This document shows, one piece after another, positions 5,378 to 24,830 of a DNA stretch of 25,573 nucleotides. The translations under genes and the position numbers were made by a program. This DNA is from a virus. The notes under the pieces are model-generated. The model did not search any database and was not told the DNA's origin. It was given only the letters and a program-made list of their open reading frames with translations. The DNA is taken from IMG/VR virus record IMGVR_UViG_3300020175_000046, positions 1 through 25,573 of that record. The stretch is one strand, 5' to 3'. Numbering within the stretch: position 1 is the first letter of the stretch; every line of letters begins with the position of its first letter.

Positions 5378-5769
5378 TATCTACAACAGTTCGCTTCTAT
5401 CCACGCAAGTCTAGTTTGTATTTCTCTAACTACATTTAAGTCTTGGTCTTGGTCTATAAGTTGTGTTTCAAGACGAGTAATTTGTATTTTGATATCGTCC
5501 CATTCCCATTTTTCAATTTGGACATATTGGTTAGTATCATTAGCTATTTCTAGTTTCTGAACTTTTTCAAACAGTACAGCTATATCGCCTTGTACGAATG
5601 TGCTTTCTTTTAGCATTTGAAAATCTACTTCAACTTGATTCATTCTGTTATCTATGCCTTTAAGTGTGTCAACGATTTCAGTAGCAGTAGATAAACCTGT
5701 TCCTATTGTTCCCATAAGAGCAATAGCAGTTGCTATCAAACCTATATTATCTTTTATTTTTGCAAACAT
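5377..5769 (-). CDS. Membrane-anchored coiled-coil protein, 130 residues
   Basis: The protein has one hydrophobic segment near the N-terminus (about residues 9-27, Gly/Ala/Ile-rich) followed by a long charged region with heptad-like spacing (about 35-125) and ends in a Cys-Cys pair. The ATG at 5769 shares its last base region with the tape measure stop, and GAGG lies about 8 nt upstream. Short membrane-plus-coiled-coil proteins right after the tape measure may be holin-like, spanin-like or tail-associated. There is only one clear membrane span and no endolysin beside it, so the lysis reading is weak. No family is recognised. The terminal cysteines and the Cys-rich neighbour at 5255-5377 might interact, but that is speculation. 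Confidence 0.7.
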   Translation of the reverse strand: MFAKIKDNIGLIATAIALMGTIGTGLSTATEIVDTLKGIDNRMNQVEVDFQMLKESTFVQGDIAVLFEKVQKLEIANDTNQYVQIEKWEWDDIKIQITRLETQLIDQDQDLNVVREIQTRLAWIEANCCR

Positions 5770-10037: not shown

Positions 10038-10706
10038 TTGCTCCTCCTATATCACCCATAATATCATCAAGAGAAACTCGTTGTCTCGGTTTATCTCTGT
10101 TATGTTGTTTTCGAAGGGCCATTTTTAACCTATGTGTATCTGCTTGTTCTTTTTTAACAACTTCACCATCTTCAGTCATTTCTAATTGACGATTACGAAG
10201 TATGTTATAGAATGTTGAATTTTCATTTGGCATGAAAGAAATTAATCTTAAAAAACGAAACCATTCAACATTAAGTGGTGACTCAATGTTATATAAGTGA
10301 AGAAAGTCTGCTTCTATTGGCCCATAGAGTTCAAGTATTTCTTGAACGGACCAACTTATTTTGGGGCTTCGGAATCCTCTTCTTCCCCTTCAGCTTCAAC
10401 CTCTTCTTCCGGTTGTGCTGCTAACCCGTATGCTTCTAGTAAGTAAGAAAGCAAATCATTCATTTGCTCCCAAGTCATACCATTGTCTAACATATCATCC
10501 AGAGTTTCTTTGCCCACTAATGAGCCAATCCATTCTGGTAATAAGTCCATCGGGATTACATCACCTTCGTTAGCATATTTCATTTGAGCTAACACTGTTC
10601 TTGCAGGTAAAGTAGCGGGTAACTCGTAAGTTTTTCCTGCTACTTTAATCTGCAAAGGTTCTTTGTCTGCTTCTAAAGCCTTATCAAAGTCTTTAAATTT
10701 TACCAC
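10030..10706 (-). CDS. Tail assembly chaperone G-T fusion (made by -1 frameshift)
   Basis: Reading starts at GTG 10706 in the G frame, shifts back one base at the slippery site 10359-10365, and continues without a stop to TAA at 10030-10032. The product has 225 residues: 116 from G and 109 from T. The T part begins with a conserved-looking region just after the shift (WSVQEILELYGPIEADF, then NVEWFRFLRLI), typical of tail assembly chaperone second domains, and ends in a basic segment with the last residues GDIGGASG. An ATG inside T at 10233 has no Shine-Dalgarno, so fusion is the better explanation. In lambda and many actinophages the G and G-T proteins hold tail-tube subunits on the tape measure during assembly. 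Confidence 0.8.
10329..10365 (-). promoter_or_regulatory. -1 programmed frameshift signal (slippery heptamer plus hairpin)
   Basis: In the G frame the last sense codons read GCC CCA AAA TAA. The heptamer C CCA AAA (10365-10359) fits the canonical X XXY YYZ rule. Eleven nt further on is a perfect 7-bp hairpin, GTTCAAG (10347-10341) pairing with CTTGAAC (10335-10329) around a 5-nt loop, a usual position for a frameshift stimulator. The -1 frame then stays open to the T protein stop. Confidence 0.85.
10356..10706 (-). CDS. Tail assembly chaperone G (unshifted product)
   Basis: A 116-residue acidic protein made when no frameshift occurs. The start is GTG at 10706 with AGGAG about 10 nt upstream. 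The N-terminal half carries VKFKDFDKALEADKEPLQIK and a short beta segment (GKTYELPATLPA), followed by helices (MTWEQMNDLLSYLLEAYG) and a Glu-rich end, a profile common in chaperones encoded between tail tube and tape measure. It stops at TAA 10356-10358, immediately after the slippery heptamer. By analogy with lambda gpG it should be made in excess over G-T and coat the tape measure before the tube polymerises. Confidence 0.85.
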   Translation of the reverse strand: MVKFKDFDKALEADKEPLQIKVAGKTYELPATLPARTVLAQMKYANEGDVIPMDLLPEWIGSLVGKETLDDMLDNGMTWEQMNDLLSYLLEAYGLAAQPEEEVEAEGEEEDSEAPK

Positions 10707-10731
10707 TTTTAATATTCTCCTATCTAATTTT

Positions 10732-11388
10732 TTAGTTAATATCTAACTCGTCAGTATCGTTAGTGTTGTCTACAACTCTGAAGAGATAGTACGCACCGCC
10801 GGAGCTACCAACATTTAAAGTTGTGTCTGGTACAAGAACTTTAAATTCTGTAGCCAAACTTACTTTAGCTGGAGCTTTTTGGTGAGCCATAGCAAAAGAG
10901 CCAACGTTCACTGCTCGAGGAACGTGGAATTGCCTGTCTGCACCGGCAGGACCATCTGTGTGTAACACAAGAGCATACTCTGTAAAAGAGTCTGACAATG
11001 GAGGTAGATATACATCGTATCCAGAAGAGAAGTTTGATGTTTCGTCTTCTGTGATGGTACCGCCACCCATTGCTATTTGTAACTTACCTTGTCCAGCTTG
11101 TGAAAGCTCTCCTGTAAGTCTTACTTCTTGTGCTGATTTAAGAGTTTTAATAGGGTCTACTTCTTCTGCGACCATGACATCTTCAAAAGTTTTATCAACT
11201 TCTAATGTCCAGCCATCTTCCGAATATCCGACTTCTTCCCAAGCTGGTGTCATCCCAGTCGGGGATACCCATGCTCCGGCAGCGTCATCACCCGGAAATG
11301 CTAAAGAACTTGTAGTCCTATCTTTGAAATAGAGAACACCTGTACCAATTAATACTTCAGATATTGTTCCTGTTGTATTATAGCTCAT
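10732..11388 (-). CDS. Major tail (tube) protein
   Basis: A 218-residue beta-rich protein between the tail terminator and the chaperones, the standard place for the tail tube subunit. The start at ATG 11388 has a good AGGAG 6 nt upstream. The sequence opens with a tube-like turn (TISEVLIGTGVLYFKD), has the segment WTLEVDKTFEDVMVAEEVDP that resembles actinophage and lambda-like tube proteins, and a central region (GELSQAGQGKLQIAMGGG) with the alternating pattern of the tube barrel. The length fits the family (about 150-250). It should polymerise in hexameric rings along the tape measure. The stem-loop at 11427-11464 lies in its leader. Confidence 0.85.
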   Translation of the reverse strand: MSYNTTGTISEVLIGTGVLYFKDRTTSSLAFPGDDAAGAWVSPTGMTPAWEEVGYSEDGWTLEVDKTFEDVMVAEEVDPIKTLKSAQEVRLTGELSQAGQGKLQIAMGGGTITEDETSNFSSGYDVYLPPLSDSFTEYALVLHTDGPAGADRQFHVPRAVNVGSFAMAHQKAPAKVSLATEFKVLVPDTTLNVGSSGGAYYLFRVVDNTNDTDELDIN

Positions 11389-11426
11389 TTGTTATCTCCT
11401 AACATATCTTATACTTATACTTAATC

Positions 11427-11464
11427 AGCTGAGCTCAGCCGACTTTTTCAAGTCGATTTCAGCT
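11427..11464 (-). other. Stem-loop in the leader of the tail tube gene
   Basis: On the transcribed strand CGACTT-GAAA-AAGTCG forms a perfect 6-bp stem closed by a GAAA (GNRA) tetraloop (11455-11440). An outer stem AGCTGA/TCAGCT (11464-11459 with 11432-11427) can enclose it. No T-run follows, so an intrinsic terminator is unlikely. It may stabilise or mark a processing point for the tail tube mRNA. Confidence 0.6.
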
Positions 11465-11471
11465 TTGCCGG

Positions 11472-11753
11472 TTATTCTTCTTCAGCAATAAAGAAGTCTT
11501 CCACTACCTCATCAACAGATTCATTGTCTTCCTCTGTTAATTTGTCATCCGGTTCTTCCTCATTAGATATCAAGACGCTTATGCGCTCTCCGCCTTGATT
11601 ATATCTATTTTCTTTGAGGCGCTCCCAGATGTCCGAGTCTATTTCAACCCACTCTTCACTACTAAACACGATTCCGCTCACGGTGTCGCGAACTTTACTC
11701 TTGTTTAGTAAAGGATTCATTTTTACTTCTACTTTTTTATTTTTTTTACTCAT
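11472..11753 (-). CDS. Small charged protein between tail terminator and tail tube
   Basis: A 93-residue protein with a Lys-rich start (SKKNKKVEVK), a short structured middle (DTVSGIVFSSEEWVEID, then NRYNQGGERISVLI) and a strongly acidic tail rich in Glu and Asp. GAGGAA lies 8 nt before the ATG, and the ATG overlaps the TAA of the tail terminator (TAATG). No family is recognised. The acidic tail and its place among tail genes would fit a small assembly factor or accessory tail protein, but nothing in the sequence proves this. Confidence 0.75.
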   Translation of the reverse strand: MSKKNKKVEVKMNPLLNKSKVRDTVSGIVFSSEEWVEIDSDIWERLKENRYNQGGERISVLISNEEEPDDKLTEEDNESVDEVVEDFFIAEEE

Positions 11754-12247
11754 TAGCCAGTTCCTCTATAATACATAGTTAATGATAGCTGATAATGTCC
11801 TAATCCTGTTTCAGTCTCTTCTATTCTTTCGGGAGCTGAATTGACTTCAAAACCAGCAATCACACCTGCTGTATTTGATGTTGGCGTCACAACTCTAGTT
11901 TGTCCTGTTTTAAAAGCTGCTTCATAAACTGCATTTGCTAATTGATAAGCAGTTGCATAATCTGGTTGAGAAGTACTAGCTCCACCCCATCTACCTGCAT
12001 AACAATTTACTTGAAAAACAACACCAGCTATTGCTGCGTCACTTGTGTTACTAATTAAACTTCCTCCTGTAGCGAAAAAAGTTAAAAAGGGTAATTCAGC
12101 ATTTCTTGGTAGTCTCGTAGCAACTCTTGTGCTAACAACATTTGTAATAATTGCTGTATTGACTGCCCATTCGCGAAAAACTATCTCCGCGTCTGGCGGA
12201 AAGTTAACATTTTGGTCTGGCTGTACGCCAACTGCTTTTATACCCAT
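11753..12247 (-). CDS. Tail terminator (tail completion) protein
   Basis: A 164-residue protein in the usual slot between the gp10-like neck protein and the tail tube. It has the layout of tail terminator proteins: an N-terminal helix (PDAEIVFREWAVNTA), a strand after a Pro (LPRNAELPFLTFFATGG), a mid strand (AGVVFQVNCYAGRWGG) followed by a helix (YATAYQLANAVYEAAF), and a final strand with Tyr (YQLSLTMYYRG). These resemble the lambda gpU / HK97 gp11 group, which caps the tube and fits the neck. There is no Shine-Dalgarno. Instead TATAAT lies 7 nt before ATG 12247, so a leaderless transcript is likely. Confidence 0.75.
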   Translation of the reverse strand: MGIKAVGVQPDQNVNFPPDAEIVFREWAVNTAIITNVVSTRVATRLPRNAELPFLTFFATGGSLISNTSDAAIAGVVFQVNCYAGRWGGASTSQPDYATAYQLANAVYEAAFKTGQTRVVTPTSNTAGVIAGFEVNSAPERIEETETGLGHYQLSLTMYYRGTG

Positions 12248-12254
12248 TTGGAAA

Positions 12255-12260
12255 ATTATA
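12255..12260 (-). promoter_or_regulatory. Candidate leaderless promoter of the tail terminator gene
   Basis: An exact TATAAT lies 7 nt (TTTCCAA) before ATG 12247 in a 17-nt gap between genes. No Shine-Dalgarno-like GGAG is present. A -10 box at this distance puts the transcription start at or next to the A of ATG. No clear -35 box is visible. Confidence 0.5.
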
Positions 12261-12264
12261 TCAC

Positions 12265-14250
12265 TTAAAAGTCGAAATCCATGTTAAGAGCGTCATTGAA
12301 CAATGAATCAACATCAAATGAACTCGCCATATCCTTAGCTAATTGTTGTCCTTTTCGACTTTGAATGCTTTGAAAAGACACATAAGGTCTTTTACCCTTT
12401 TTCTTTGAGCTGCCTGCGTCACTTCTACGCTTTCTTGCTTTTATTATTAACTTATTACCATCCTGCTTGGTAGATAAATTGTATACTTCTTTCAGTAATT
12501 CAGCACGTCGAGCACCTCTAGCAGTGTCTTCTCCTGTGTTCATATTGTTAAATATCTTAATATATCTCTCTGTATCGTTTAATAATCTCTTAGGAGCATT
12601 CTTATATTCAGCTTGCTTTGATAGGTAATTACCTACTTTGTTAAATACCTTCTTATATTTCTCTCCACCTTCGGTTAAGCTACCGCCTCCAGATTCAATA
12701 AATACTTTAGCTGCCTGTGAAACAACTTTTGCATTGTCAGTCTTTCTTAGTGGTACAGTCATAGATATATTCATATTCTCTGGTATTGCATTTAAACCTA
12801 GTTCTGCTGCTAACTCTTTACTGTAAAAAGCGCCATGAGCTGAATCTATTCTTGGACCCGGTATTCTCTGCTCCATTTGAGACAAGAAACTATGTCCTCT
12901 AGATTCTCTATCAAGCATATAACGTTCACTAAGGAAGTCATTTGTTTTTGTATTTTTAAGATAGTCTGGTTTATATTTCTTAAGAGCTGTTTTCTGATTT
13001 CTTTGCTTAGCTATTCTTAGCCACTCGTTATAGTATTTTTTAGAATTAGACATACCAACATTAACTTTACTACTTAAGTTATACGCTTTTTTATATTGCT
13101 TTCTTGCTACTTCAATAGCTCTTCTGACAAAAAACGTAGGTTGTATATATTTAGTCTTAGGTATATATTTATCTTCTTTTCTACCGCTATACTGACCTCC
13201 AAAACCTTTTTTATCTGGATGACTAGTTCTTTGATAATACGGTATGCTTCCACCAAATTCTACAGCCCATATCCATGGAAAATCGGGACTTCCGCCTACT
13301 TGTATCTCTGCGTCAAAGAAACTTCCTTTATCCCAATCTGGATGTGCTTCTGTTCCTTTATTTACATGTTTTCCTATTGTAGGTTTAAAGTCTCTTCTTA
13401 TAATAGAGTTTTGTAGAGCAAGATAAGATTGACCGGGTTTTGTGAACCCAAATACATCTCTGTGTTCATATTTAAATTTAGAATCTTCCGGTGCTAAGTT
13501 CTTTACTCCCAGTTTGTTGAATTCTGATTTTTTAGTCATTTTGTCAAAGTCAATAATCTGATTTTGATATTTAGCAGGACCATCTGTCATGCCTAGTAAA
13601 AACTGACCACTTGCTACGTCCGGTGCAAAAGCTCTAATATTCATTTCTGTTTGAACTAACATCATCTGTGCTTTTTGTAATACATTGTATTGTTTTTTCA
13701 TATGAGCATTAGCTGCTGAGCCATTAATTTTCATTTTACCCGAAACGAAAGCTACAGCGTTATTCTGAAAGTTTCTAAATCTTCTGTTTGAAGACAACCC
13801 TTTACCTATACCTATACGAAGCATACGAGAAGGTAAAGGTCCTAGACCTAAAGGCTGTACTAATGCGTTAATACCTAAACCAGATAACTTACCAACACCA
13901 ACACGGCTGGCTCTTTCCGTTAAAGGAGAAAGCTTACCGCTTTCTAATGCTTTAGTTATAGCCTTACCAGTACCCATCATACGAGCTGCTGGGTAAATTA
14001 AGTTACGAGCACTAGCAAAGTTTTGTACTACACCTAGGTTTCTAACACCCGGCATTTGTTTCAAAGTACCAGAAGTTTTACCATATCTATATAAGAAGTT
14101 TTGAAATGTGTTAGTTTGTTTGCCTTTAGGTTTATTACCTTTAGTTAAAGCTTGATAGGACTTATTATCTATCCATTTACGCGCAGATTGTCCTAGTGTG
14201 TTACCCTGTTGGGTTTTTATATATTCTTCGACCATTCCGTCGCTAGGCAT
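12265..14250 (-). CDS. Enlarged HK97 gp10-like neck protein, 661 residues
   Basis: The gene sits between head closure and tail terminator, the slot of HK97 gp10-like proteins that are normally about 130-160 residues. A gp10-like core can be read at about residues 275-390: a helix with NSII, a strand FDAEIQVGG, then WIWAVEFGGSIPYYQ, and after a loop IQPTFFVRRAIEVARKQY, matching the family's order of aVEfG and P-x-x-F-x-x-A motifs. Around it are a basic N-terminal extension (1-270) and a long C-terminal extension (390-661) with Lys-rich stretches. The start at ATG 14250 has AAGGA 6 nt upstream. No enzymatic motif was recognised in the extensions. The gp10 assignment is an inference from position and short motifs; a different large minor head or tail protein is possible. 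Confidence 0.55.
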   Translation of the reverse strand: MPSDGMVEEYIKTQQGNTLGQSARKWIDNKSYQALTKGNKPKGKQTNTFQNFLYRYGKTSGTLKQMPGVRNLGVVQNFASARNLIYPAARMMGTGKAITKALESGKLSPLTERASRVGVGKLSGLGINALVQPLGLGPLPSRMLRIGIGKGLSSNRRFRNFQNNAVAFVSGKMKINGSAANAHMKKQYNVLQKAQMMLVQTEMNIRAFAPDVASGQFLLGMTDGPAKYQNQIIDFDKMTKKSEFNKLGVKNLAPEDSKFKYEHRDVFGFTKPGQSYLALQNSIIRRDFKPTIGKHVNKGTEAHPDWDKGSFFDAEIQVGGSPDFPWIWAVEFGGSIPYYQRTSHPDKKGFGGQYSGRKEDKYIPKTKYIQPTFFVRRAIEVARKQYKKAYNLSSKVNVGMSNSKKYYNEWLRIAKQRNQKTALKKYKPDYLKNTKTNDFLSERYMLDRESRGHSFLSQMEQRIPGPRIDSAHGAFYSKELAAELGLNAIPENMNISMTVPLRKTDNAKVVSQAAKVFIESGGGSLTEGGEKYKKVFNKVGNYLSKQAEYKNAPKRLLNDTERYIKIFNNMNTGEDTARGARRAELLKEVYNLSTKQDGNKLIIKARKRRSDAGSSKKKGKRPYVSFQSIQSRKGQQLAKDMASSFDVDSLFNDALNMDFDF

Positions 14251-14251
14251 A

Positions 14252-14587
14252 TTAAGTCCTTACTAGAGACTGAATAAATTTATAACACTCTTTTCCGTAT
14301 CTGTCTAATACAGGTTGAACTGTAATGATTTCGTGATATGTTCCATTTCTGTTCATCCTATCTCCCGGAGTTACTGTAACATTTGGTTGTATGTAAACTC
14401 TAAATGTTTCAATAGTAGTATTACGTCCGTCTCTATCCTCTTCAGCACCTAATGACTCAAATTTAGCTCTGATACTTGTAGCACTATCTGCCCAAGAGTC
14501 AGAAGGTAAACCTCTTTCGTCTATGTTTGTGTCTGAAACAGATTGAATTGAAATTGTCTCTGGTAAATGTCTGCTCTTTAAACCCAT
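14252..14587 (-). CDS. Head closure protein (head-tail adaptor)
   Basis: A 111-residue beta-rich protein of the SPP1 gp16 / YqbH type. Typical features are the early strand ISIQSVSDTNIDERG, the middle AKFESLGAEEDRDGRN where the family has its ring-forming loop, and the ending strands GDRMNRNGTYHEIITVQPVLD followed by YKFIQSL, close to the family signature of GD-x-I/M with a later tyrosine. It would plug the connector and dock the tail. It has no Shine-Dalgarno: TAAAAT lies 6 nt before ATG 14587, making a leaderless-type start. Its usual partner, the connector, is more than 2 kb upstream because of the cargo cassette. Confidence 0.75.
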   Translation of the reverse strand: MGLKSRHLPETISIQSVSDTNIDERGLPSDSWADSATSIRAKFESLGAEEDRDGRNTTIETFRVYIQPNVTVTPGDRMNRNGTYHEIITVQPVLDRYGKECYKFIQSLVRT

Positions 14588-14593
14588 GGCTAC

Positions 14594-14599
14594 ATTTTA
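14594..14599 (-). promoter_or_regulatory. Candidate leaderless promoter of the head closure gene
   Basis: The sequence reads TTG-TAAAAT, six nt (GTAGCC), then ATG 14587. It copies the layout before the cassette's first gene (TTG-TATAAT, six nt, ATG at 16661). No Shine-Dalgarno is present and no clear -35 box is visible. Confidence 0.4.
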
Positions 14600-14609
14600 C
14601 AACAAAAAG

Positions 14610-15794
14610 TTATAAAAATTGGTTAAGCATGTCTCCCATCATCATTTCTTTATAAATTATGCTATAAAGCATATTGTTCTTACCTAGAACATGAGGATTG
14701 TATCCAGTTTCTTTATTGTATGTTTTTACAATATTTAGTAGCTCTACACACAGTTGTTCATATATATTTACTATCTTGGAAAAATCTTTTGACCATTGTG
14801 CATTGTTGTCAAGATTAAAAATTACAAAACACCTAAAACCATTTAGTAATATACAAGTAATAGCTTCATGGAATTTGTAATCTTCTTTTTTACCTATCAT
14901 TGGGAATTCGTAAGCTTTTTGCTTATAAGGTAGAGCTAGACCTAGACTTCCTAGACTTCCTAACTTAGATGGCCAAAACTCTATTGTTTTTGTATTTATG
15001 AAATCGTGTAGGTAAAGTATGTCACTAATAATCGGAGCAAAAGCTTTAAATACATTTGGGTCACTCTTGTATGTATCAATAACTTCTTGTTTATTCCAGT
15101 AAGAAATAGTTGGTTGGTTATTTGAATCTGTACCATAAACATTATTTCTCAATAAATTTATGTAGCAAAGCACGTCTATCAAATCAATCTTATCTACATA
15201 TTCAGTACTATCTACAATTTGTTTAAGCCAGTCAAGTTCTTTTTCATCAATCGTTATGTCTGTTTTGTTTGTTATCTTAGAATCTAAACTCTTAATAATT
15301 TCTGGTATAACTTTAGGCTCAAATCCAGTAATTAACTTAACTCGTATAAATATTTTGTTTCCTATATCTTCTTTTGACATAGAACGAATAATTTCATACA
15401 AATTAGCACCATCAATAATCCCCTGTGTCTTGTCGTCCGATATAGTCAAAGCTGCTCTGTTTACCCCTTCTGAGATATCTACTGTATCTGCATATATAGT
15501 TATACCTTGATTTTTAAGATGAAAGTACCCTTTTTCGCCAAACTCTTCTGTGATTGATAATTTTACATCGTCTATCACTTGACTATCTACATCAAGAGTA
15601 TTGCAATCGGGATGAATAGGTATAATTTGTTTTACACCGGGTCTATCGACAGTTAATTCACGCAAAGGGACGTATAAATTTACTACATAACTTTTTTGAT
15701 GTAAAGGGTCTGGATTTACAGAATAAGAATTATAAGATAAAAAGTATCTATTTGGTCCTTGTAGTACTTCTTCAGTACCTTCATCTTTTACCAT
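14610..15794 (-). CDS. AIPR-like (abortive infection phage resistance) protein
   Basis: A 394-residue protein with no place in head or tail assembly. It has the hallmark pair of AIPR-family proteins: LKNQGITIYAD (93-103), matching the family's N-N/R-GITI-x-A strand, and GIIDGANLYEII (125-136), matching its GI(V/I)(N/D)G helix start. These are followed by a strand RVKLI (151-155) and a SLDSK...NKTDI segment (169-180), where AIPR proteins have their 'TN-Q-N' helix. The C-terminal half (about 200-394) is helical and unrecognised. ATG 15794 overlaps the FmdB-like gene by 7 nt, so translation is coupled. AIPR proteins were named from abortive-infection loci; their biochemistry is poorly known. Here a role in blocking superinfecting phages or modifying the host is plausible. 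Alternative: a different DGQHR/DndB-like fold. Confidence 0.6.
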   Translation of the reverse strand: MVKDEGTEEVLQGPNRYFLSYNSYSVNPDPLHQKSYVVNLYVPLRELTVDRPGVKQIIPIHPDCNTLDVDSQVIDDVKLSITEEFGEKGYFHLKNQGITIYADTVDISEGVNRAALTISDDKTQGIIDGANLYEIIRSMSKEDIGNKIFIRVKLITGFEPKVIPEIIKSLDSKITNKTDITIDEKELDWLKQIVDSTEYVDKIDLIDVLCYINLLRNNVYGTDSNNQPTISYWNKQEVIDTYKSDPNVFKAFAPIISDILYLHDFINTKTIEFWPSKLGSLGSLGLALPYKQKAYEFPMIGKKEDYKFHEAITCILLNGFRCFVIFNLDNNAQWSKDFSKIVNIYEQLCVELLNIVKTYNKETGYNPHVLGKNNMLYSIIYKEMMMGDMLNQFL

Positions 15795-16033
15795 CTGTAT
15801 TTTATTTTCTTTGCTTTTTGATAACTTTTAAAAGATTTCTCAGATAAATTACTAGGGTCTTTTTCCCAATCAACATCTATAGGTGTTTCAAATCTTACAT
15901 TCTTGCTAATAAGTCTTTTAGTATCTGATTGACACTTAGGACATTTAATTAAAGGGTCTTCGTGTATTGAGTAAGTTACTTCAAATTCAAAGTAACATTT
16001 ATGCAGAATACATTGATGTTCATATCTGGGCAT
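15788..16033 (-). CDS. FmdB-like zinc-ribbon protein
   Basis: An 81-residue protein with the start of an FmdB-type regulator: MPRYEHQC, then C13, a short linker, and CPKC at 31-34 followed by TKRLIS, matching the family pattern M-P-x-Y-E-Y-x-C ... C-P-x-C ... R-x-I/L-x. The four cysteines (8, 13, 31, 34) should bind zinc; the first pair is spaced by four residues rather than the usual two. A basic C-terminal tail follows. It overlaps the upstream HTH gene by 14 nt and the downstream AIPR-like gene by 7 nt. A likely role is binding DNA, RNA or a partner protein in the cassette; the function of FmdB-like proteins in phages is not established. Confidence 0.65.
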   Translation of the reverse strand: MPRYEHQCILHKCYFEFEVTYSIHEDPLIKCPKCQSDTKRLISKNVRFETPIDVDWEKDPSNLSEKSFKSYQKAKKIKYRW

Positions 16034-16661
16034 TTCTTCTTCTTATCTTCCTTTTATTATTTTTATGACAATCTTTACAAAAGATTTTATAACCATCTTG
16101 TGAATTAGGATTTCTACTAAATTCAGATGTCTTTTTTTCTTTTGTGCAAGAAATACATGTTTTTAATTTTTCATCACCGAGTTCTTCTTTTTTTTCTTTT
16201 ATTAAAGCTAGGCAGGGCATACAGAATTTAGTATATCCATCTAGATATTTTTGTGTTCTTTTAAAATCTTCTACTGCTAACCATTCACGACAGTATTTGC
16301 ATTCTTTCTCAATTGGGTCTTTTAAATTTTTAAGGGCTTCTTTTTGTGCTTCTTCTACACGTTGACGTAAACCTTCTTCGTCTTGTATCCAAGTTTTAAA
16401 TCTTTCTAAACCAATTGTCACCTCTTCATAAGTTCTAGGTGTAGTTAAACCACCACGTCCTGTTCTAATAACCTCAAGGATAGCTTCTGCGGTTTCCTCA
16501 TTGTAAGCACCACGTTGTGGTACTCCAGATTGTATTCTAAGTTGACGAACTCTTTCGTGTGTTACGCCCCATTCATCAGCCCATTCTTGTAACATTTTGC
16601 TGGGGTCTTGTGTAAAGAATTCTGTTGCTTCTTCCAGAGACGGAGCTTTTCTATGTACCAT
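16020..16661 (-). CDS. HTH protein with two zinc ribbons
   Basis: A 213-residue protein and the first gene of the cargo cassette. Residues about 23-46 (EWADEWGVTHERVRQLRI) form a helix-turn-helix like that of sigma region 4 and small regulators. A charged helical linker follows (70-115). The end carries two repeats of C-x2-C, about 20 residues with F and DGY, then C-x2-C: C121/C124/C147/C150 and C169/C172/C195/C198. This repeat is frequent in phage zinc-finger proteins and in the N-terminus of endonuclease VII-like HNH enzymes, but no HNH residues follow, so DNA binding without cleavage is more likely. It ends in a basic tail. No Shine-Dalgarno is present; TATAAT lies 6 nt before the ATG. It may regulate the cassette or guide the AIPR-like protein. 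Confidence 0.65.
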   Translation of the reverse strand: MVHRKAPSLEEATEFFTQDPSKMLQEWADEWGVTHERVRQLRIQSGVPQRGAYNEETAEAILEVIRTGRGGLTTPRTYEEVTIGLERFKTWIQDEEGLRQRVEEAQKEALKNLKDPIEKECKYCREWLAVEDFKRTQKYLDGYTKFCMPCLALIKEKKEELGDEKLKTCISCTKEKKTSEFSRNPNSQDGYKIFCKDCHKNNKRKIRRRNAQI

Positions 16662-16667
16662 AGTCTA

Positions 16668-16673
16668 ATTATA
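16668..16673 (-). promoter_or_regulatory. Candidate leaderless promoter of the cargo cassette
   Basis: An exact TATAAT lies 6 nt (TAGACT) before ATG 16661 and contains the TAA stop of the connector gene. It follows a run of six T and a G. There is no Shine-Dalgarno and no convincing -35 box. It would let the cassette be expressed apart from the structural operon. Confidence 0.5.
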
Positions 16674-17313
16674 CAAAAAATCTGCTTCTAAACGGGTTTA
16701 ACATAGCCATATCTGAATTGCTTAATACAGGTTGTAAATTCTGTATAACTACATCTCCAAATGCTACGTCGTAATCTCCTACTCTCTCGGTTATGGCTAC
16801 ATCAAAGTTTGTTGTTGATGTATTATCTTCTAAGTGTGAACGAACTACTCCTGTGTCTGCTTTTGCAGAGACTTGTAATGATGTCATTACTAATCTTGCA
16901 GCAGCACGAGCAGCTGTAAATTTTATTTGGTCTGGTATATCTGCTGAGGCATATCCGCCAACATAAGTAACTACTATATTTTTAGGTTTGATTCCAGACC
17001 ATCGTATAGCAATTCTATTAAGTCTTCCATTATCATAATGAACATAGTCTTTAGTATTACCGGAGATAAGTGTATTACCATCTTCAGTAAGAGAAGTAAT
17101 AGACGCAATAGGTATGTGTCTTAGAAATAAATCTTTTTGTTCATTACCGTCAAATGTTTCTACAAACGTTGCTTGTTCAACATCATGACCAAGATACCGC
17201 TTAATAGCAGCTTCAACGTATGGTATGAAAGTGTTTGTAACGTGACCTTCAATGGTAGTACTTAAATCTATCTCTAGAAAGGTCTCTACATCACTAGCGC
17301 TACAAAGAGCCAT
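16669..17313 (-). CDS. Head-tail connector (gp6/gp15-like adaptor)
   Basis: A 214-residue protein with the helical layout of HK97 gp6 / SPP1 gp15 adaptors, which form a ring under the portal. Visible features are an N-terminal helix (SASDVETFLEIDLS), a second helix (FIPYVEAAIKRYLG), the strand-loop FLRHIPIASITSLTEDG, the conserved-looking IVVTYVGGYASADIPDQIKFTA segment that ends the family's beta part, and a following long helix (AARAAARLVM). The length is near the upper end for the family. The start at ATG 17313 has AAAGGAG 8 nt upstream. Its TAA lies inside the TATAAT of the cassette promoter. Confidence 0.8.
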   Translation of the reverse strand: MALCSASDVETFLEIDLSTTIEGHVTNTFIPYVEAAIKRYLGHDVEQATFVETFDGNEQKDLFLRHIPIASITSLTEDGNTLISGNTKDYVHYDNGRLNRIAIRWSGIKPKNIVVTYVGGYASADIPDQIKFTAARAAARLVMTSLQVSAKADTGVVRSHLEDNTSTTNFDVAITERVGDYDVAFGDVVIQNLQPVLSNSDMAMLNPFRSRFFV

Positions 17314-17324
17314 TTAAGACTCCT

Positions 17325-17576
17325 TTATTTATCTTCGGATGGTTTGACAGCTTTGGTTTCGACTTTTTTCTTAGGTGCTGCTTTTTTAGCTGGAGCTTTT
17401 TTCTTCTTGTCAGAAGTGCTTTTCCAACCTTGCTCTTTTAACCATTTCTCTGATACTTCTTTTCCTGCTTGTGCAATCTTTGAAGCACCAGATTTAGGTA
17501 ATTCTGCTAGAGAACCCTCGAAGAAGGAGCCATCCTTCATCTTCCAAATTGTCTTTTCTGGTTTTATAATTGACAT
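17325..17576 (-). CDS. Small Lys-rich protein after the capsid gene
   Basis: An 83-residue protein. The N-terminal half is structured (IWKMKDGSFFEGSLAEL, then SEKWLKEQGW) and the rest is a Lys/Ala/Pro-rich, probably disordered tail (about 55-83). It lies between the capsid and the connector, where many phages encode head decoration or minor head proteins; the basic tail could contact DNA. It has no clear Shine-Dalgarno and follows the terminator-like hairpin at 17598-17626, so how it is expressed is unclear; a TAAAAT lies 9 nt before ATG 17576. No family is recognised. Confidence 0.65.
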   Translation of the reverse strand: MSIIKPEKTIWKMKDGSFFEGSLAELPKSGASKIAQAGKEVSEKWLKEQGWKSTSDKKKKAPAKKAAPKKKVETKAVKPSEDK

Positions 17577-17597
17577 AATAAAATCATTTTACCCTAT

Positions 17598-17626
17598 AAA
17601 AAGAAGAAAGCCGGTTTTACCCGGCT
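17598..17626 (-). terminator. Intrinsic terminator or attenuator after the capsid gene
   Basis: On the transcribed strand AGCCGG (17626-17621) pairs with CCGGCT (17614-17609) around GTAAAA, followed by the T-rich run TTCTTCTTTTT. It sits 27 nt after the capsid stop and before the 83-residue gene. Partial read-through would raise capsid mRNA over connector and tail mRNA. Confidence 0.65.
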
Positions 17627-17652
17627 ATCTTCAAATTCCGTACTAACAGATA

Positions 17653-18894
17653 TTACATATTTGTTAGTTTGTGGAAAGCTGCTTCTCTGTAAACAGGGAA
17701 ACCAACACGCATTGTTGCTCTAATAGCAAGCATGTTCTTTGTGAAATAATCACTATGAGAATCTGTTACCGCTAAATCGATACCTTGTCTCATAACAACA
17801 TTACAAGCTTCACCGCCACCGAATTTACCAACAAGAACAGTTCCTGCGGCAATTGCGGTAGTAGGAATAACTTTAAGTCCCCAGATTTGTGCTGAAGGAC
17901 CTGCGCCCATTCCACCAGCTGCTACGAAAAGTGGTGACTTTTCTGCATATCCAGCGGATGAAGTTCCAGCGAAATCAGCACCGACTGATGTGACAATGTC
18001 ATTCCAGTCATTTGGGTGCATGATAATTGCGTCTGGTTCTGTGAATGCGTTCACTCTGATATCTGTGATAGCACCATAAAGTGCACCAATTTTACCAAGA
18101 GTTCCTGCATAGGCGCTAAAGTCTGTGCTTCCTACTGAGGCTTTACCAGCGTCTAAGATACCTTCTAAGTTAGGAGCAGTACCATTTCCACTAAGGAGTT
18201 GGCTGTCCAATCTTAGACGAATCATTGTTTGCAGTCTACTGTTAATGTATCCTTGGATACCAGCTTCGTCTGCTACTAGTTCATCAGTAACTGGGATAAA
18301 TATACCCAATTTACGGATAGCTTCTGTTTGCTCTGTGAAAGCTAATGCAGCTTCACCAACAGCAGAACCTTCAGCTGCTTCAGCAGCATTGTTTGTGAAG
18401 GTTGTTTCCTCAAGGTATGAGAAAGCATTTTGGTCTGTGTTGATTACATCAAATAATGATATAACAGCATTAGGGTCTCTGAGAGCCGATTCTAGAATCC
18501 CGGTTTGTCGTAAAACCTCTGGTGGATAACCAGTTGTGTTTAAAGTTGTTTTTGTCTCAATTTTTGAGTCAACACCTTTAACGCCATTGCTTACGTAATT
18601 TTTGTAAGCGTCGGATTCTGTAAATAGCTGCCCAACAGTTTTAACTTCAGCTTCGTTAGAAGCTAAAGGCATTTCTGCAACTGGTTTTGAATCTTCTTGA
18701 AGAGCCTTTTCATTGGAAGCTTTTTTCTTCTCAATGCCTAGGTCATCAACTAATTCAGCAAGTTCGTCGTTACGTGACTTAATTTCCTCTTTTTGTTCAG
18801 CGGAGTACTTGCCGTCTTCTTGTGACTCAAAAACAGATTTTAATTCTGCTCTTTTAGCAGCAATTTTATCCATGAGTTCGTTTTGATTACTCAT
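17653..18894 (-). CDS. HK97-fold major capsid protein
   Basis: A 413-residue protein directly after the protease. Residues 1-65 are a charged coiled coil (KIAAKRAELKSVFESQ) that matches the HK97 delta domain, which acts as an internal scaffold and is cut off during maturation; this fits the lack of a separate scaffold gene. The rest follows the HK97 family: the loop region SLFDVINTDQNAFSY, the A/P-domain stretch KLGIFIPVTDELVADEAGI with long helix INSRLQTMIRLRLDSQLLSG, PDAIIMHPNDWNDI, IWGLKVIPTTAI, and the end AIRATMRVGFPVYREAAF. The start at ATG 18894 has GGAG about 10 nt upstream. It forms the icosahedral shell and is expected to be the most abundant product. Confidence 0.95.
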   Translation of the reverse strand: MSNQNELMDKIAAKRAELKSVFESQEDGKYSAEQKEEIKSRNDELAELVDDLGIEKKKASNEKALQEDSKPVAEMPLASNEAEVKTVGQLFTESDAYKNYVSNGVKGVDSKIETKTTLNTTGYPPEVLRQTGILESALRDPNAVISLFDVINTDQNAFSYLEETTFTNNAAEAAEGSAVGEAALAFTEQTEAIRKLGIFIPVTDELVADEAGIQGYINSRLQTMIRLRLDSQLLSGNGTAPNLEGILDAGKASVGSTDFSAYAGTLGKIGALYGAITDIRVNAFTEPDAIIMHPNDWNDIVTSVGADFAGTSSAGYAEKSPLFVAAGGMGAGPSAQIWGLKVIPTTAIAAGTVLVGKFGGGEACNVVMRQGIDLAVTDSHSDYFTKNMLAIRATMRVGFPVYREAAFHKLTNM

Positions 18895-18921
18895 TGTTAG
18901 ATTTCTCCAATCTATAATTGC

Positions 18922-20181
18922 TTATACTTCTTCTATTTGTTCGATTAAGGATTCAGCAATTAATTGCTGTGCCCTTACCCACTCTGCGTCAAATTCCTCA
19001 TCGTCAAGTGATTCAGTGTTATCCTCTGGAGTTTCTTCTTCAGCAGCTTCTTCTTCCGGTTCTTCTTCAGTAGATTCCTCTACTGGAGCTTCTTCCTCAG
19101 TAACTTCTTCGACCTCAGTTTCAACATCAATAGTATCAGTTGAAGCCTCAGCTACCTCTTCTGTTTCAGCTGGTTCATCTTCCACAGGTTCCTCGTCTAT
19201 ATCTGACAATTCTAAAGCACCCTCAGTTCCGATATCTCCGATGAACTCGTCAATTTCGGTCCAAGCGTCGTTCAAGTCGTCTGCGACTGCACGAAGTGCT
19301 TCAGTGGCTTTTACGCCTAATTTTCTCCCGTCTTCGCCACGGAGCATTGCTATTGGGGTTGCTCGGGCTACTAAGTCATCCAATGCAGCAAGCACATCTT
19401 TGACTTCTTCAGAGAAAGACTGTGAGCCTTCCTCAGAAACTTCTATATCTTTTTCAGATTTACTTTCGTCATCATTGTATTCTTTCATACAACTTCCTCC
19501 ACTTCCATACTTGCAATCACCTTTAATTTTTTCCCCAGAATCAGATTTTGTATCATCTTTCATACAAGGTCCGCCATCATGGTATTTACAAGATTTCATT
19601 TCTTCAGCGTTCTCTTCTTTTTTTGCTTTCTTAGCTTCGCAAGTACCGCAACATTCATCATCAAACTCTTCTTCGGGGTCAGCTACTTTTGCTACTTCCT
19701 TCAATAGTTCAGTATTTGATTTAATTGCGAGTGTATAGGTATCTTGATTTGCTCCAACAAGAACAGGAGAGACTTCATAAACTGTTAAGTCTTTTAAATA
19801 TCTAGCGTTGGTTGTTCCATCGCTATCTTTGAATTTTTCAAATTCTGAATCGTTAACTTTATAGCCGAATGACCATTGTTGCATATCGCCCATATTCTTA
19901 ACTAGATTGTAAGCTTCTTTACCAGACTCTGTGTCCATAAAGAACTCACCTTTAAAAATTGCTTTGTCGTCATCTTGAGCTATAGTTCCTTTACCAATAG
20001 GCATATCCCATTTGTGAGACCATACCATAGGTACTTGGTCATTTTTAAACCCAGATTTTACTGCGCCCGGTACTACGACATCCCCATCACTATCGAGGGA
20101 ATTGAACAAGCTAAAGACTGCTTCTACTTGACCGGACTCGTCTTTTAACTCTATGTCTATATTTTTAGATTCGTTATTCAT
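18922..20181 (-). CDS. Prohead protease with Cys-motif and acidic C-terminal extension
   Basis: Residues about 10-155 form an HK97-type (U35/S78) prohead protease: FNSLDSDGDVVVPGA, then catalytic His56 in WSHKWDMPIG and Ser104 in QQWSFGY, ending with KDLTVYEVSPVLVGANQDT. This is the normal family length. About 260 further residues follow. They contain CCGTC (177-181), two copies of CKY-x2-GG-x-CMK (198-208 and 223-233), a short helical part (260-320), and a Glu/Asp-rich tail (320-400) that looks disordered. The tail could act as scaffold or recruit the protease into the prohead, and the paired cysteines could bind metal; both are inference. The start at ATG 20181 has AAGGA 5 nt upstream. Confidence 0.9.
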   Translation of the reverse strand: MNNESKNIDIELKDESGQVEAVFSLFNSLDSDGDVVVPGAVKSGFKNDQVPMVWSHKWDMPIGKGTIAQDDDKAIFKGEFFMDTESGKEAYNLVKNMGDMQQWSFGYKVNDSEFEKFKDSDGTTNARYLKDLTVYEVSPVLVGANQDTYTLAIKSNTELLKEVAKVADPEEEFDDECCGTCEAKKAKKEENAEEMKSCKYHDGGPCMKDDTKSDSGEKIKGDCKYGSGGSCMKEYNDDESKSEKDIEVSEEGSQSFSEEVKDVLAALDDLVARATPIAMLRGEDGRKLGVKATEALRAVADDLNDAWTEIDEFIGDIGTEGALELSDIDEEPVEDEPAETEEVAEASTDTIDVETEVEEVTEEEAPVEESTEEEPEEEAAEEETPEDNTESLDDEEFDAEWVRAQQLIAESLIEQIEEV

Positions 20182-20266
20182 ACATCCTTCAATCGTATAT
20201 TATATAATATATATTTCAGATGTGCGTCTTTTACTATTTTATATTAAGAATTGAGAATTGAGTTTT
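20182..20266 (-). promoter_or_regulatory. AT-rich gap between portal and protease, possible promoter
   Basis: This 85-nt gap is the largest among the head genes. It holds tandem CAATTCT copies just after the portal stop, and TATAAT at 20204-20199 within an alternating AT stretch, followed by AAGGA before the protease start. No -35 box is clear. It could be a promoter for the protease-capsid unit. Confidence 0.35.
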
Positions 20267-22948
20267 TTATTGTCTAAAGTCTGATATTATTCTGAGCTGT
20301 GAAATAAGCACTTTCACACTTCTATCTGTCTTCTGATGGTCACCATTTTCTAAACGAGCGTATACCATAACAGTTGCTTCTTCATCATTTACTGATGTAA
20401 CAATACCGTGAACAATTGAAGGTGGGTCTGGGTCTTTCTTGATTGACCAACTGACGGCTTGGCCTACTCTAACTGATTCTGCTTTAGTACCAGATTTCTT
20501 AGAAGACAATGGATGTGAACTTGGTAGTAAGTCTTGGTCGTAAGGTTTTCTTCTAAATTTACCAGTTCTTAGTGCTCTTATAAAACCGTTGACACGGGCC
20601 ATTGCCCACTGGTCAGCAGATGTAACATTACCTCTTACTGAACCGGGGTTAGTTCTGTATGCACCAACACCTCTGTTAAATACTGCAATAAGCATTCTTA
20701 GTGTTGCTCTATGTTTAGGATTCTTAGAGTTATGGTCTTCTACTTTATTAGTAAGAGCGGTTCTAACTCTATCAGATACTGCTTTTAACAAATACTCTTC
20801 TGCTATATCAAGAGATTTTTTTCTACGTTCTCTAATAACTTTTTTGTAATCATTAACAACTGACTTCATTTGTGAAACACCACCAGCAGTTACACCTCCC
20901 CATTTCATAACAGCAATAGTTCCGTTAAGTCTGTTATTTTTCTTGTGACGATTCATAAAGCGTTCTCTTCTCTTAACCCAGTTAAGTACTGACTCACTTC
21001 TATCTCCGCCTTTGTAGGCAGTCCATCTGTTGTAAGCGTCATTACCAGTAAATGAAGTAGGAGGATTACCACCGGTACCTGCTCTTCTCCAAATCTCTGG
21101 CCAGTTTTCTTTTAAATCTTTAACATAAGCGTGACTAGGGAATTGTTTATGTTGTGAGTTAGATAAACTTATTTTCTGGTTATCTCCACTCTTCGGAAAG
21201 TTTGTTACTTTATCCGGTGCTTTTTCTTCCGGACTATGTAGTTTATCACCTTTTTCGTACATAGTTTCAGCTTCTTCTAAAGAAACTTTAATTTCTTCTA
21301 TGTTTCCCTTTTTAGGTTTATTAACAGCATTTAAGTAATCTTGATGTGTTGCACAAGCCATGTAGAACTTATCACCATCTACATCAATGTAGTGTGTTCC
21401 CTCACAACCAAGTTCTTTAGCTCTTTCTTGAGCTTCTTCAATTGTAGTGTAAGTGTCTTTCATTAAAGCTGCCGGTTCTTTATCTAAGTAACTAGGAGTT
21501 TTTTGAATTTCATCTTCTCTCTCTACCTCTGGAGGTAAAGTCACAGTAGTCAATGTTGCTTTAGACTCATCATCGTCATCATTAGTTGGTTTGTCAGCTG
21601 TATCTGTTCCACCTTCATTTAAAAGTGGACTACCATCTTCCGTTACTTGAATCATGTTAAGAGGTCTTAAATAAACATCATGTCTATTATCAGCCTCTAG
21701 TCCTACAACTTTTCTTGCTTCGCCAATTGTTACCCAACCCCCTTGTACAGCAGTGTTCATGCGTTTATAGAGGTTGTCTTTGTCATCAGCTAAAGCTCTA
21801 ACGCCTCCGATATCATACTCGCAGTATTGATTATCGTTACCGCCAAACTCTGGTCGTAACAATTGATGAGTCAAATCACTCGCAACCATGTTCCACATTG
21901 GGACCATTTTTGACTCTGTAAAGAACTCTCTAAGTTCTTTTGTATTTGAATATGTAGCAGAATCAAGACCAGCACCGAGTCCTGCAAGAACAGCTGGAAC
22001 GCCAAGTACAGCAGAAACTCTTTCTTCTGGTATTCTTCTTAATTCGGCTAACTTCATTTGGTCTGGAGAAAAAGATACAACTTCAACGTTCATTGCACCA
22101 GACAAAACCATAGGAGCACCTCTGTTTTTGCCACCGAACTTTTCTTTATACATTTCTGCAATAGCTTCGGCTTCTTCTCTAGTTGGCCCACCCATTTGGT
22201 CATCTCTTGGAGAGAGGATTACTCCGGGTACCGCCATGTTATGCAATAAAGCAGCTGTATATTGTCCAGCAGCTTCATCTCCTGCAATCTCTCTTAGAAC
22301 GCCTCTAAGTGGAGCAAGACCTTTTCTCATGTTGTTAGGGTCAACATTTTGTCGTAAATGAATCATGTCAACTTTTTCAATCCTTACAGCGTCTTCACCC
22401 TGCATTCCGCCTTGCGGTTGGTAATTGAAATGTGTAATAAGTTCGTTCTCATTACCTTTAGCCTCTACTAGATGAGGCATTAAAGGAACGAGTTCTACAA
22501 CCTGTCCTCGTTGATTCCTATTTTTGTAAATAAAAGCGTCGCCTGCTGCGTTTAAAGATGTAACAATATAGTTAGCAAGTAACTGTTGTGTCATATAAGG
22601 ATTTGGTCTTCTTAGCAATTTAGTAAGAGGATGATTCATCTCTCTTTGATAATCGCCTTCAGAGTTTCTTGATGATACTAAAATATTAGGTTCTGCAAAA
22701 GCGGTAGCTAAAACTTGTAAACATGCAATAACAGCAGAGTTTCCTGTTCCGTCTCCAACTTCTGCAAGTGTTTTGTGGTCAAAGTATCCGGATGTTGTGT
22801 TATATCCAAATACAGCTTGATTTAAATATGAATATTCAGATTGGTTAACAACCAACCCTTTTTGATTTGCTTCTCTTCTAACCCTAGCGTCAGTTGGTGA
22901 ATTCAACCAGTCTAGTGCTTTTGAAAATCTTGATTTATCTTCCGCCAT
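20267..22948 (-). CDS. Portal protein with long multi-module C-terminus
   Basis: An 893-residue protein, about twice the usual HK97-type portal. Residues 1-440 match the portal family: SAVIACLQVLATAFAEPNILV, HPLTKLLRRPNPYMT, GDAFIYKNRN, a MIHLRQ strand, GLAPLRGVL, the clip/crown segment RIPEERVSAVLGVPAVLAG, and LYKRMNTAVQGGWVTIGEAR. After a disordered acidic linker come modules often seen as phage cargo domains: a GCEGTH...YMACATHQDY motif (about 500-545), a basic helical region with WPEIWRRAG and GTIAVMKW (590-700), a GVGAYRTNPGSVR...WAMARVNGF motif (758-790), and an SH3-like end (826-888, VRVGQAVSW). Its ATG overlaps the TerL stop (TAATG). It is the DNA entry ring at one capsid vertex. Confidence 0.9.
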   Translation of the reverse strand: MAEDKSRFSKALDWLNSPTDARVRREANQKGLVVNQSEYSYLNQAVFGYNTTSGYFDHKTLAEVGDGTGNSAVIACLQVLATAFAEPNILVSSRNSEGDYQREMNHPLTKLLRRPNPYMTQQLLANYIVTSLNAAGDAFIYKNRNQRGQVVELVPLMPHLVEAKGNENELITHFNYQPQGGMQGEDAVRIEKVDMIHLRQNVDPNNMRKGLAPLRGVLREIAGDEAAGQYTAALLHNMAVPGVILSPRDDQMGGPTREEAEAIAEMYKEKFGGKNRGAPMVLSGAMNVEVVSFSPDQMKLAELRRIPEERVSAVLGVPAVLAGLGAGLDSATYSNTKELREFFTESKMVPMWNMVASDLTHQLLRPEFGGNDNQYCEYDIGGVRALADDKDNLYKRMNTAVQGGWVTIGEARKVVGLEADNRHDVYLRPLNMIQVTEDGSPLLNEGGTDTADKPTNDDDDESKATLTTVTLPPEVEREDEIQKTPSYLDKEPAALMKDTYTTIEEAQERAKELGCEGTHYIDVDGDKFYMACATHQDYLNAVNKPKKGNIEEIKVSLEEAETMYEKGDKLHSPEEKAPDKVTNFPKSGDNQKISLSNSQHKQFPSHAYVKDLKENWPEIWRRAGTGGNPPTSFTGNDAYNRWTAYKGGDRSESVLNWVKRRERFMNRHKKNNRLNGTIAVMKWGGVTAGGVSQMKSVVNDYKKVIRERRKKSLDIAEEYLLKAVSDRVRTALTNKVEDHNSKNPKHRATLRMLIAVFNRGVGAYRTNPGSVRGNVTSADQWAMARVNGFIRALRTGKFRRKPYDQDLLPSSHPLSSKKSGTKAESVRVGQAVSWSIKKDPDPPSIVHGIVTSVNDEEATVMVYARLENGDHQKTDRSVKVLISQLRIISDFRQ

Positions 22949-24180: not shown

Positions 24181-24448
24181 AAATTTCCTTAAACATAAAT
24201 ATAGGAGTATAGGTACCTACATAAGCATTGACAATATTCATTTCTACATGCTGTATAGCTTCAGACACTGCTTCTTCTTCATCAAAATCATTGTCTTCCA
24301 ATATCCCGTCAACTACAATATCTACCATTGTGTAGTAGTCATAGATAGCTTTACCATCATGGGTATAACCAAGATAAGCTTCTTCAAAGTCATCTACAAT
24401 TAGAGCTTCCGGATTAAATTCCTTTAACTCATCATATACCTTATTCAT
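24173..24448 (-). CDS. Small acidic protein before TerL
   Basis: A 91-residue, strongly acidic protein with helices such as EALIVDDFEEAYLGY and EDNDFDEEEAVSEAIQHVEM. A strong GGAGGAG precedes ATG 24448, and it overlaps both HNH (8 nt) and TerL (8 nt). It lies where many phages encode the small terminase subunit, but it is short and lacks a visible HTH, so a TerS assignment is not supported. It could be a packaging accessory or a DNA-mimic-like protein; no family is recognised. Confidence 0.7.
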   Translation of the reverse strand: MNKVYDELKEFNPEALIVDDFEEAYLGYTHDGKAIYDYYTMVDIVVDGILEDNDFDEEEAVSEAIQHVEMNIVNAYVGTYTPIFMFKEIYD

Positions 24449-24830
24449 TTCTCCTCCATTCTAGTATAAGAAAACCTTTCAGCAGTTCCATGTATTCACG
24501 ATTGCTACCACGTGATTGTCTGCCGTCAAAGATGTCATGATGTGTTTTACAGAGAATGCAAACGTTCTTGGGGTCATTTGAGAGTTCACGATTTTTGCCC
24601 CCCATACCGATTGCTATGAGATGAGCCATTTCTAGCCACTTTTTCTCATAGCAGTTCGGCCACTCACAAGTATAATTTGCACGTATAAGAGCTTCTTGTC
24701 GTAAGTCAGATTTATTTATTTTGCCGGTACCTTTGCGTTTCTTTTGTCCCATGCCGGAGATACCAGATTCATCACTTCTACGCTTTTTAAATTCAGCATA
24801 TGATTCGTTCTCCACATCCCAAGTTGTCAT
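24441..24830 (-). CDS. HNH endonuclease next to the terminase
   Basis: A 129-residue protein with a basic N-terminus and a clear HNH zinc motif: Cys55 and Cys60, AHLIAIGMGG with His70, Asn89, CILC (91-94) and HHD (97-99) with His98. The two cysteine pairs bind the structural zinc and the histidines the catalytic metal. HNH enzymes encoded beside TerL and portal, such as HK97 gp74, are known to help the terminase cut cos sites. The start is ATG 24830, which overlaps the stop of a possible 38-codon gene (ATGA); GGAG is 12 nt upstream. A free-standing homing enzyme is less likely in this position. Confidence 0.88.
   Translation of the reverse strand: MTTWDVENESYAEFKKRRSDESGISGMGQKKRKGTGKINKSDLRQEALIRANYTCEWPNCYEKKWLEMAHLIAIGMGGKNRELSNDPKNVCILCKTHHDIFDGRQSRGSNREYMELLKGFLILEWRRNE

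Follow-up and report, generated by a model that had tools for sequence, protein, structure and literature searches.

What is a relative of the AIPR proteins, a family whose name derives from abortive infection, doing among the neck genes of a phage? The question is raised by a 25.6 kb IMG/VR virus record, which as a whole is the window analyzed here (25,573 nucleotides). A preliminary description had placed three overlapping genes between the head-tail connector and head-closure genes, and the positions of the open reading frames, the overlaps and the profile matches of the flanks all agree with this arrangement (Table 1). The order is a head-tail adaptor (Ad1), a protein with a helix-turn-helix (HTH) region and a double Cys4 zinc ribbon (HTHZR), an FmdB-type zinc ribbon, the AIPR-like protein and a head-completion protein (Hc1), whose Pfam score is slightly below the family cut-off. 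HTHZR and FmdB overlap by 14 nt, and FmdB and the AIPR-like gene by exactly 7 nt, with the FmdB stop and the AIPR start sharing the sequence ATGGTAA. The arrangement, including the AIPR frame, recurs on about 60 related contigs and is therefore not due to chance. The placement of the gene is real, well conserved and somewhat surprising.

Table 1. Features of the window and of related records. Positions without a prefix are those of the window; L, G and NC_ names denote other contigs or records.
Feature	Position	Strand	Basis or remark
AIPR-like protein gene	14610..15794	-	394 aa; Pfam AIPR 7.8e-8, alignments, structure models
FmdB-type zinc ribbon gene	15788..16033	-	81 aa; TIGR02605 4.5e-11, alignment of relatives
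HTHZR gene	16020..16661	-	213 aa; alignment, PHROG EndoVII/Lar-like
Ad1-type head-tail adaptor, upstream flank	16669..17313	-	PHROG 442, 5.5e-20
Hc1-type head-completion/head-closure protein, downstream flank	14252..14587	-	Pfam Phage_HCP 3.3e-5; PHROG 501 0.006
TTTGTATAAT directly before HTHZR ATG	16668..16681	-	no Shine-Dalgarno; putative leaderless promoter
AIPR-Hc1 spacer with TTGTAAAAT directly before Hc1 ATG	14588..14607	-	no Shine-Dalgarno; putative transcription restart
Terminator-like hairpin between capsid gene and rest of operon	17609..17626	-	follows the capsid gene
Neck-tail block	1-17313		
Head block	17325-22948		portal, protease, MCP, G83
HNH endonuclease gene	24441-24830		PF13391 6.9e-5; similar gene in clade II at L061:175-555
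WhiB gene, clade I (G004)	L125:62-358		Pfam 1.7e-25
Inverted Ad1-Hc1 islands, clade III	L189:12303-14446; L174:10757-12496; L183:11993-12871		
Gene after Hc1, clade II	L132:8998-14298		1766 aa
Insert of 259-294 aa, clade I	L013:8557-9441; L020:5061-5867; L032:7018-7797; L149:9654-10433		weak DUF6065-like match
Proteins resembling the insert, tail-fibre region of G005	about 21844, 37805, 39938		
Gene of 70-75 aa after FmdB	L039:8880-9107; L061:800-1012		clade I neck; clade II terminase end
Temperate-phage AIPRs	NC_051597.1 gp38; NC_010463.1 22639-24336; NC_019488.1 gp14		Thyatira; Fels-2; RE-2010

The AIPR relationship proposed for the 394-residue protein is borne out by sequence profile; an apparent colinearity with short bacterial AIPRs and a structural match to a viral AIPR protein point the same way. 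The Pfam AIPR profile (PF10592, AbiU1/AIPR) scores 32.8 bits against a cut-off of 25, over residues 80-169 only (90 residues), with a colinear motif region; it matches 6 of 27 phage members (E<=1), the best at 4.4e-10. Alignment by hhalign with two short bacterial AIPRs of 390-395 aa, one from a gammaproteobacterium with an integrase neighbour and one from a Tritonibacter plasmid, was colinear from 12-383 to 8-384 (E 0.0024/0.0014; reversed controls 0.46/0.77). This whole-length alignment includes the C-terminal GKSKACYxxLYQI / GKNKMLYSIIYKE block, so that the short bacterial AIPRs and the phage protein share a GKxKxxYxxxY block. Plain hmmsearch gave no match, and against mixed bacterial AIPRs a profile comparison hardly outperformed its reversed control (0.026 vs 0.04). 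The phage protein differs from the bacterial family in lacking the long N-terminal part of the 560-700 aa forms and in the AIPR signature NGxQT, found after a core strand: none of the 37 phage sequences has it, and DG(ANL/SHI/SYI/SAF)Y stands in its place. NGxQT is carried by 13 of 15 comparator ORFs, and at least one of the two without it was a badly chosen ORF. Because the signature is missing from every phage sequence, we call the protein AIPR-like: it is homologous to AIPR and stands at the edge of the family, as a diverged sister group and not a full member.

Searches beyond the family gave few leads. No match to a structural family was found in Pfam, in PHROG or in sequence searches of solved structures, and the latter returned no match of any kind. 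By tblastn, named phages gave nothing related to the AIPR-like or HTH protein, PADLOC matched neither the AIPR-like nor the FmdB protein, and 84,980 bacterial and archaeal species likewise yielded no protein related to the AIPR-like one. Viral relatives of the short bacterial AIPR were sought too, and none turned up. The alignment lacks a conserved R-x4-6-H pair of the HEPN type, an N-terminal HEPN having been reported for AIPR (PMC3506569), and no effector motif was found in the protein.

Two structures were predicted for the AIPR-like protein, with pLDDT of 69.5 and 72; the latter (pTM 0.52) is of moderate confidence. In a viral structure library, the best match was an uncharacterised phage protein (6.7e-9) followed by a viral AIPR protein (1.4e-6), with GmrSD_N (0.0086), a DndB-like protein (0.063) and ParB/sulfiredoxin names at lower ranks. 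Solved structures gave weak matches throughout (best E 0.16-0.26), with Noc first (E 0.16) and SspE and PadC also present. Profile comparison with ParB, DUF262 and DndB sets, which were drawn from Gammaproteobacteria, remained at control level. The ParB-type structural matches agree with the published chain linking DndB to AbiU1/AIPR (PMC3506569) and assigning DndB/DUF262 to the ParB/Srx fold (PMC4619093). The protein would thus combine a ParB/sulfiredoxin-type N-terminal region with a helical C-terminal half. The motif GI(I/V)DGANLY lies at residues 125-133 within the N-terminal alpha/beta region, and the helical half ends in the near-invariant NPHLLGKxxxxYSxxYKExxMxDxLNQF. In most members the length is constant and free of indels, and the C-terminal 34 residues are strongly conserved. 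The GmrSD/DUF262, DndB/DGQHR and SspE proteins, which also appear in the structure searches, have a comparable D-G motif after a beta strand, however, their DGQQR/DGQHR is DGANLY here and the phage protein has no HNH or other nuclease domain. The active-site Arg of ParB/Srx proteins (GERR, DGQQR, DGQHR) is absent from all 37 phage sequences, and with both this residue and NGxQT missing, nucleotide binding by the AIPR-like protein is uncertain.

Relatives collected by IMG/VR scans with the AIPR-like, HTH and capsid proteins fall into three clades, of which clade I, with capsid proteins about 80% identical or more, includes the window. The AIPR profile found 60 contigs: FmdB lies directly before the gene and Hc1 directly after it on 55, and the other five are ended by a contig edge or broken by a frameshift. 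The gene is fixed in this clade: all clade I capsid loci on contigs long enough to include the site carry it. One contig (L149) was considered as an exception and rejected, as it stops before the site. Clade II (capsid about 60-63%) has the order Ad1, HTHZR, Hc1, and FmdB, on the contigs that show it, lies far upstream, close to the terminase gene. Clade III (capsid 68-77%) has Ad1, a small gene, FmdB, an inverted island of about 3 kb, a longer HTHZR and Hc1; the island is variable, with a C5 DNA methylase, an MT-A70 methylase, SLT-like and PAPS-reductase-like proteins in different members. The phage profile found no AIPR on 13 clade II/III contigs and detected it on 8 of 8 clade I contigs tested; the Pfam AIPR search of clades II and III carries no weight, as it misses most known clade I copies. 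The expectation that connector and head-closure genes are normally adjacent does not apply to these phages, since Ad1 and Hc1 are separated even without AIPR and the sister clades keep the HTH gene between them. The gene after Hc1, in the place of the neck/tail-completion protein, encodes 1766 aa in clade II; its counterparts encode 661 aa (window) and about 370 aa (clade III). An HNH endonuclease gene lies upstream of the large terminase gene in the window, and clade II has a gene resembling it.

The AIPR-like gene is under purifying selection, with dN/dS of 0.067 in the closest informative pair (L002/L004) and a median of 0.11 over 70 pairs with similar capsid genes. Across 23 genomes, the quartets of its tree agreed with those of G164 (0.96), Ad1 (0.94), G116 (0.91), Hc1 (0.90), TMP (0.90), HTHZR (0.86) and G661 (0.85), while agreement was low with MCP (0.56), FmdB (0.47) and portal (0.42), chance level being 0.33. 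The AIPR-like gene therefore shares its descent with the neck-tail block. The head block is a module that has been exchanged, and FmdB has a history of its own. The history of the head block differs from that of the neck-tail block such that near-identical MCP genes can occur in genomes with neck and tail genes that are 50-80% identical. In 45 of 55 pairs, the dS of the AIPR-like gene exceeds that of HTHZR and that of Hc1. We rejected the idea that it is the most exchanged gene, as these pairs had been selected for similarity of their capsid genes and the part that moved is the head block. Local replacement does occur: in L045/L051 the AIPR allele was replaced alone (72-88% nucleotide identity, with the Ad1 and Hc1-G661 flanks mostly at 98-100%), and in L011/L019 the downstream flanks were replaced and the AIPR-like gene was not. 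The idea of a swappable cargo is contradicted by its presence in every clade I genome reaching the site and its inheritance with neck and tail genes. G+C content is 30.5% for the AIPR-like gene and 37.1% for the window, with only FmdB (28.9%) lower among the window genes, and is compatible with an outside origin. The best reading is that the clade ancestor gained the gene once and that it has since been kept as a core late gene.

The hosts are probably actinobacterial, and marine Actinobacteria in our best explanation, because WhiB genes occur on one clade I and one clade II contig (G004 and G012). The prokaryote species searched contained no prophage or host contig, with capsid relatives only 24-34% identical, and no PF00589 tyrosine integrase was found in 11 contigs of 38-57 kb, which are possibly incomplete. 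HTHZR and Hc1 mostly lack a Shine-Dalgarno and have TATAAT/TAAAAT-like hexamers before the ATG, unlike MCP and Ad1. The TTGTAAAAT-type hexamer stands before the Hc1 ATG in 23 of 23 distinct upstream stretches, and TANNNT lies 4-9 nt before the HTHZR ATG in 12 of 17. As TTTGTATAAT also encodes the end of Ad1, part of its conservation is at the protein level, and since the hexamer overlaps this conserved end, the reading of a leaderless promoter before HTHZR is tentative.

The two zinc-ribbon proteins were largely as first described. FmdB is above the cut-off of both TIGR02605 (42.6 bits vs 31.3) and PF09723 (36.6 vs 34.4). Of the HTH and double zinc ribbon proposed for the first gene, the ribbons stand: both C-terminal Cys4 ribbons are kept in 20 of 20 aligned relatives (invariant Cys at 121, 124, 147, 150, 169, 172, 195 and 198), and PHROG matches of the EndoVII/Lar-like type relate them to the ribbons of phage endonuclease VII families, whereas the HTH scores weakly by profile (Sigma70_r4 0.19). 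Close relatives of the window keep the three genes together and do not carry them singly in unrelated places. Of 113 locus extracts, which include several per contig, 108 preserve the 7-nt FmdB-AIPR overlap, and the other five hold a wedged 75-aa gene. In 31 locus extracts, a gene of 259-294 aa lies between HTHZR and FmdB; contig G005 encodes proteins resembling it in its tail-fibre region. A small gene of 70-75 aa follows FmdB both in the clade I neck and at the clade II terminase end, which suggests that the two moved together.

HTHZR and FmdB both occur without AIPR in the two sister clades. Together with the inserts that split the trio and the separate history of FmdB (0.47), this contradicts the earlier proposal that the trio works as a unit in which one effector has two nucleic-acid-binding partners. 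The genes do not form such a unit, and FmdB is independent of AIPR. The earlier suggestion that competing phages are excluded or the host is acted upon may still hold. A cassette of three genes dedicated to abortive infection, with an AIPR effector under the control of both zinc-ribbon proteins, would fit the overlapping frames and the frequency with which the 7-nt overlap is kept, however, it is very improbable given the inserted genes, the location of FmdB near the terminase gene in clade II, the persistence of both ribbon genes without AIPR and the lack of an effector motif. That the AIPR-like protein blocks other phages entering the same cell, alone or with the zinc-ribbon proteins, is unlikely, and the case for it comes from temperate phages. 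Fels-2, RE-2010 and Thyatira are likewise tailed phages with an AIPR domain, and annotation describes the AIPR of Salmonella phage RE-2010 as one that "prevents superinfection" and that of mycobacteriophage Thyatira as "Abi alpha-like". The P2-like Fels-2 and RE-2010 have the gene at corresponding spots, with replication gene A on one side and portal on the other; in Thyatira it lies beside integrase and repressor genes. The replacement of the AIPR allele alone in some close pairs also fits exclusion. Those proteins, however, are 555-569 aa long, retain NGxQT and are encoded at accessory spots, and since size, motif, place and inheritance all differ here, transferring their function is unsafe. 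The gene of the window is clade-core, lies in a structural operon and follows the neck and tail genes in its inheritance; no tyrosine integrase was found in the 11 long, possibly incomplete contigs, the prokaryote species searched contain no relative, late expression would leave little time for exclusion, and FmdB does not co-vary. A phage gene can hinder competitors at the assembly stage, as does the tail-assembly blocker Tab of phage JBD26 (PMC10884400), although Tab is an unrelated, prophage-expressed protein and the AIPR-like gene is core.

Its position between Ad1 and Hc1, the history it has in common with Ad1, Hc1, G164 and TMP, its constant, indel-free length in most members and the conserved C terminus would all suit a protein that builds or stabilizes the neck or tail, or aids packaging, in clade I. 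It is missing, however, from both sister clades, whose Ad1, Hc1 and capsid genes are homologous; no structural family is matched, and structure searches lead to AIPR, GmrSD and ParB-type proteins, which makes an assembly role unlikely. Equally doubtful is control of late transcription or DNA handling by the AIPR-like protein and HTHZR, as a ParB-type nucleotide-dependent DNA switch of the kind DndB provides for its own operon. A neighbour with an HTH and two zinc ribbons, the possible promoter before the trio and restart before Hc1, and the binding of ATP and GTP by a DndB-like protein (PMC12704722) point this way. The distance correlation of AIPR with HTHZR (0.88) does so too, but it is no higher than that with G661 or G116 (0.89) and may reflect the backbone only, and clades II and III keep HTHZR although they lack AIPR.

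We place most weight on a late-made, possibly virion-borne anti-restriction protein, ahead of exclusion and then of assembly and regulation, because DdrB-like proteins and the T4 proteins directed against GmrSD are the closest functional parallels. DdrB-like ParB domains occur among late genes beside virion genes, and DdrB of P1 is packaged (PMC5512222); injected T4 proteins block GmrSD (PMC12373910), itself a ParB/Srx-fold system (PMC4619093). The AIPR-like protein resembles the DdrB type in its probable ParB/Srx-type fold and in the place of its gene in a late operon adjoining virion genes. The conserved active-site Arg and the packaging in P1 belong to DdrB, and no sequence relationship between the two is evident. 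The Ad1-Hc1 interval of clade III, with its C5 DNA and MT-A70 methylases, also speaks for a function against restriction, although these genes run in the opposite direction and could be insertions with no connection to it. AIPR has been tied recurrently to restriction operons (PMC2292703; PMC3506569), whereas the phage gene lies outside any defence or restriction context.

We therefore hypothesize, with less than even confidence, that the AIPR-like protein is a diverged AIPR relative, gained once and kept as a core late neck gene, that serves the phage against host restriction and is plausibly borne by the virion. It would be made late with the virion proteins, would act as a nucleotide- or nucleic-acid-binding protein and not as a killer toxin, and would most likely counter host DNA defences such as restriction. 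By analogy with the ParB-fold DdrB of P1, it could be carried in the particle and injected. HTHZR would be a regulator or DNA-binding protein of the lineage and FmdB an independently exchanged neighbour, neither of them a dedicated partner that the protein needs. A narrower version, which we regard as distinctly unlikely, is that a domesticated, particle-borne or delivered protein, stripped of the AIPR signature residues, disarms AIPR- or restriction-type systems of the host, for example as an inactive partner that poisons their complexes.

Overlap of genes in a phage operon does not alone make a functional cassette, since here the middle gene has a different history. In the named phages found to carry AIPR genes, all of them temperate, these genes are accessory, whereas this one is a fixed late gene, and the AIPR-like protein may be a defence-family protein turned to the phage's own use. 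A fixed late AIPR relative with an altered signature would be a natural example of a defence fold put to work by the infecting virus, and such a lineage would give a handle on the biochemistry of the AIPR fold.
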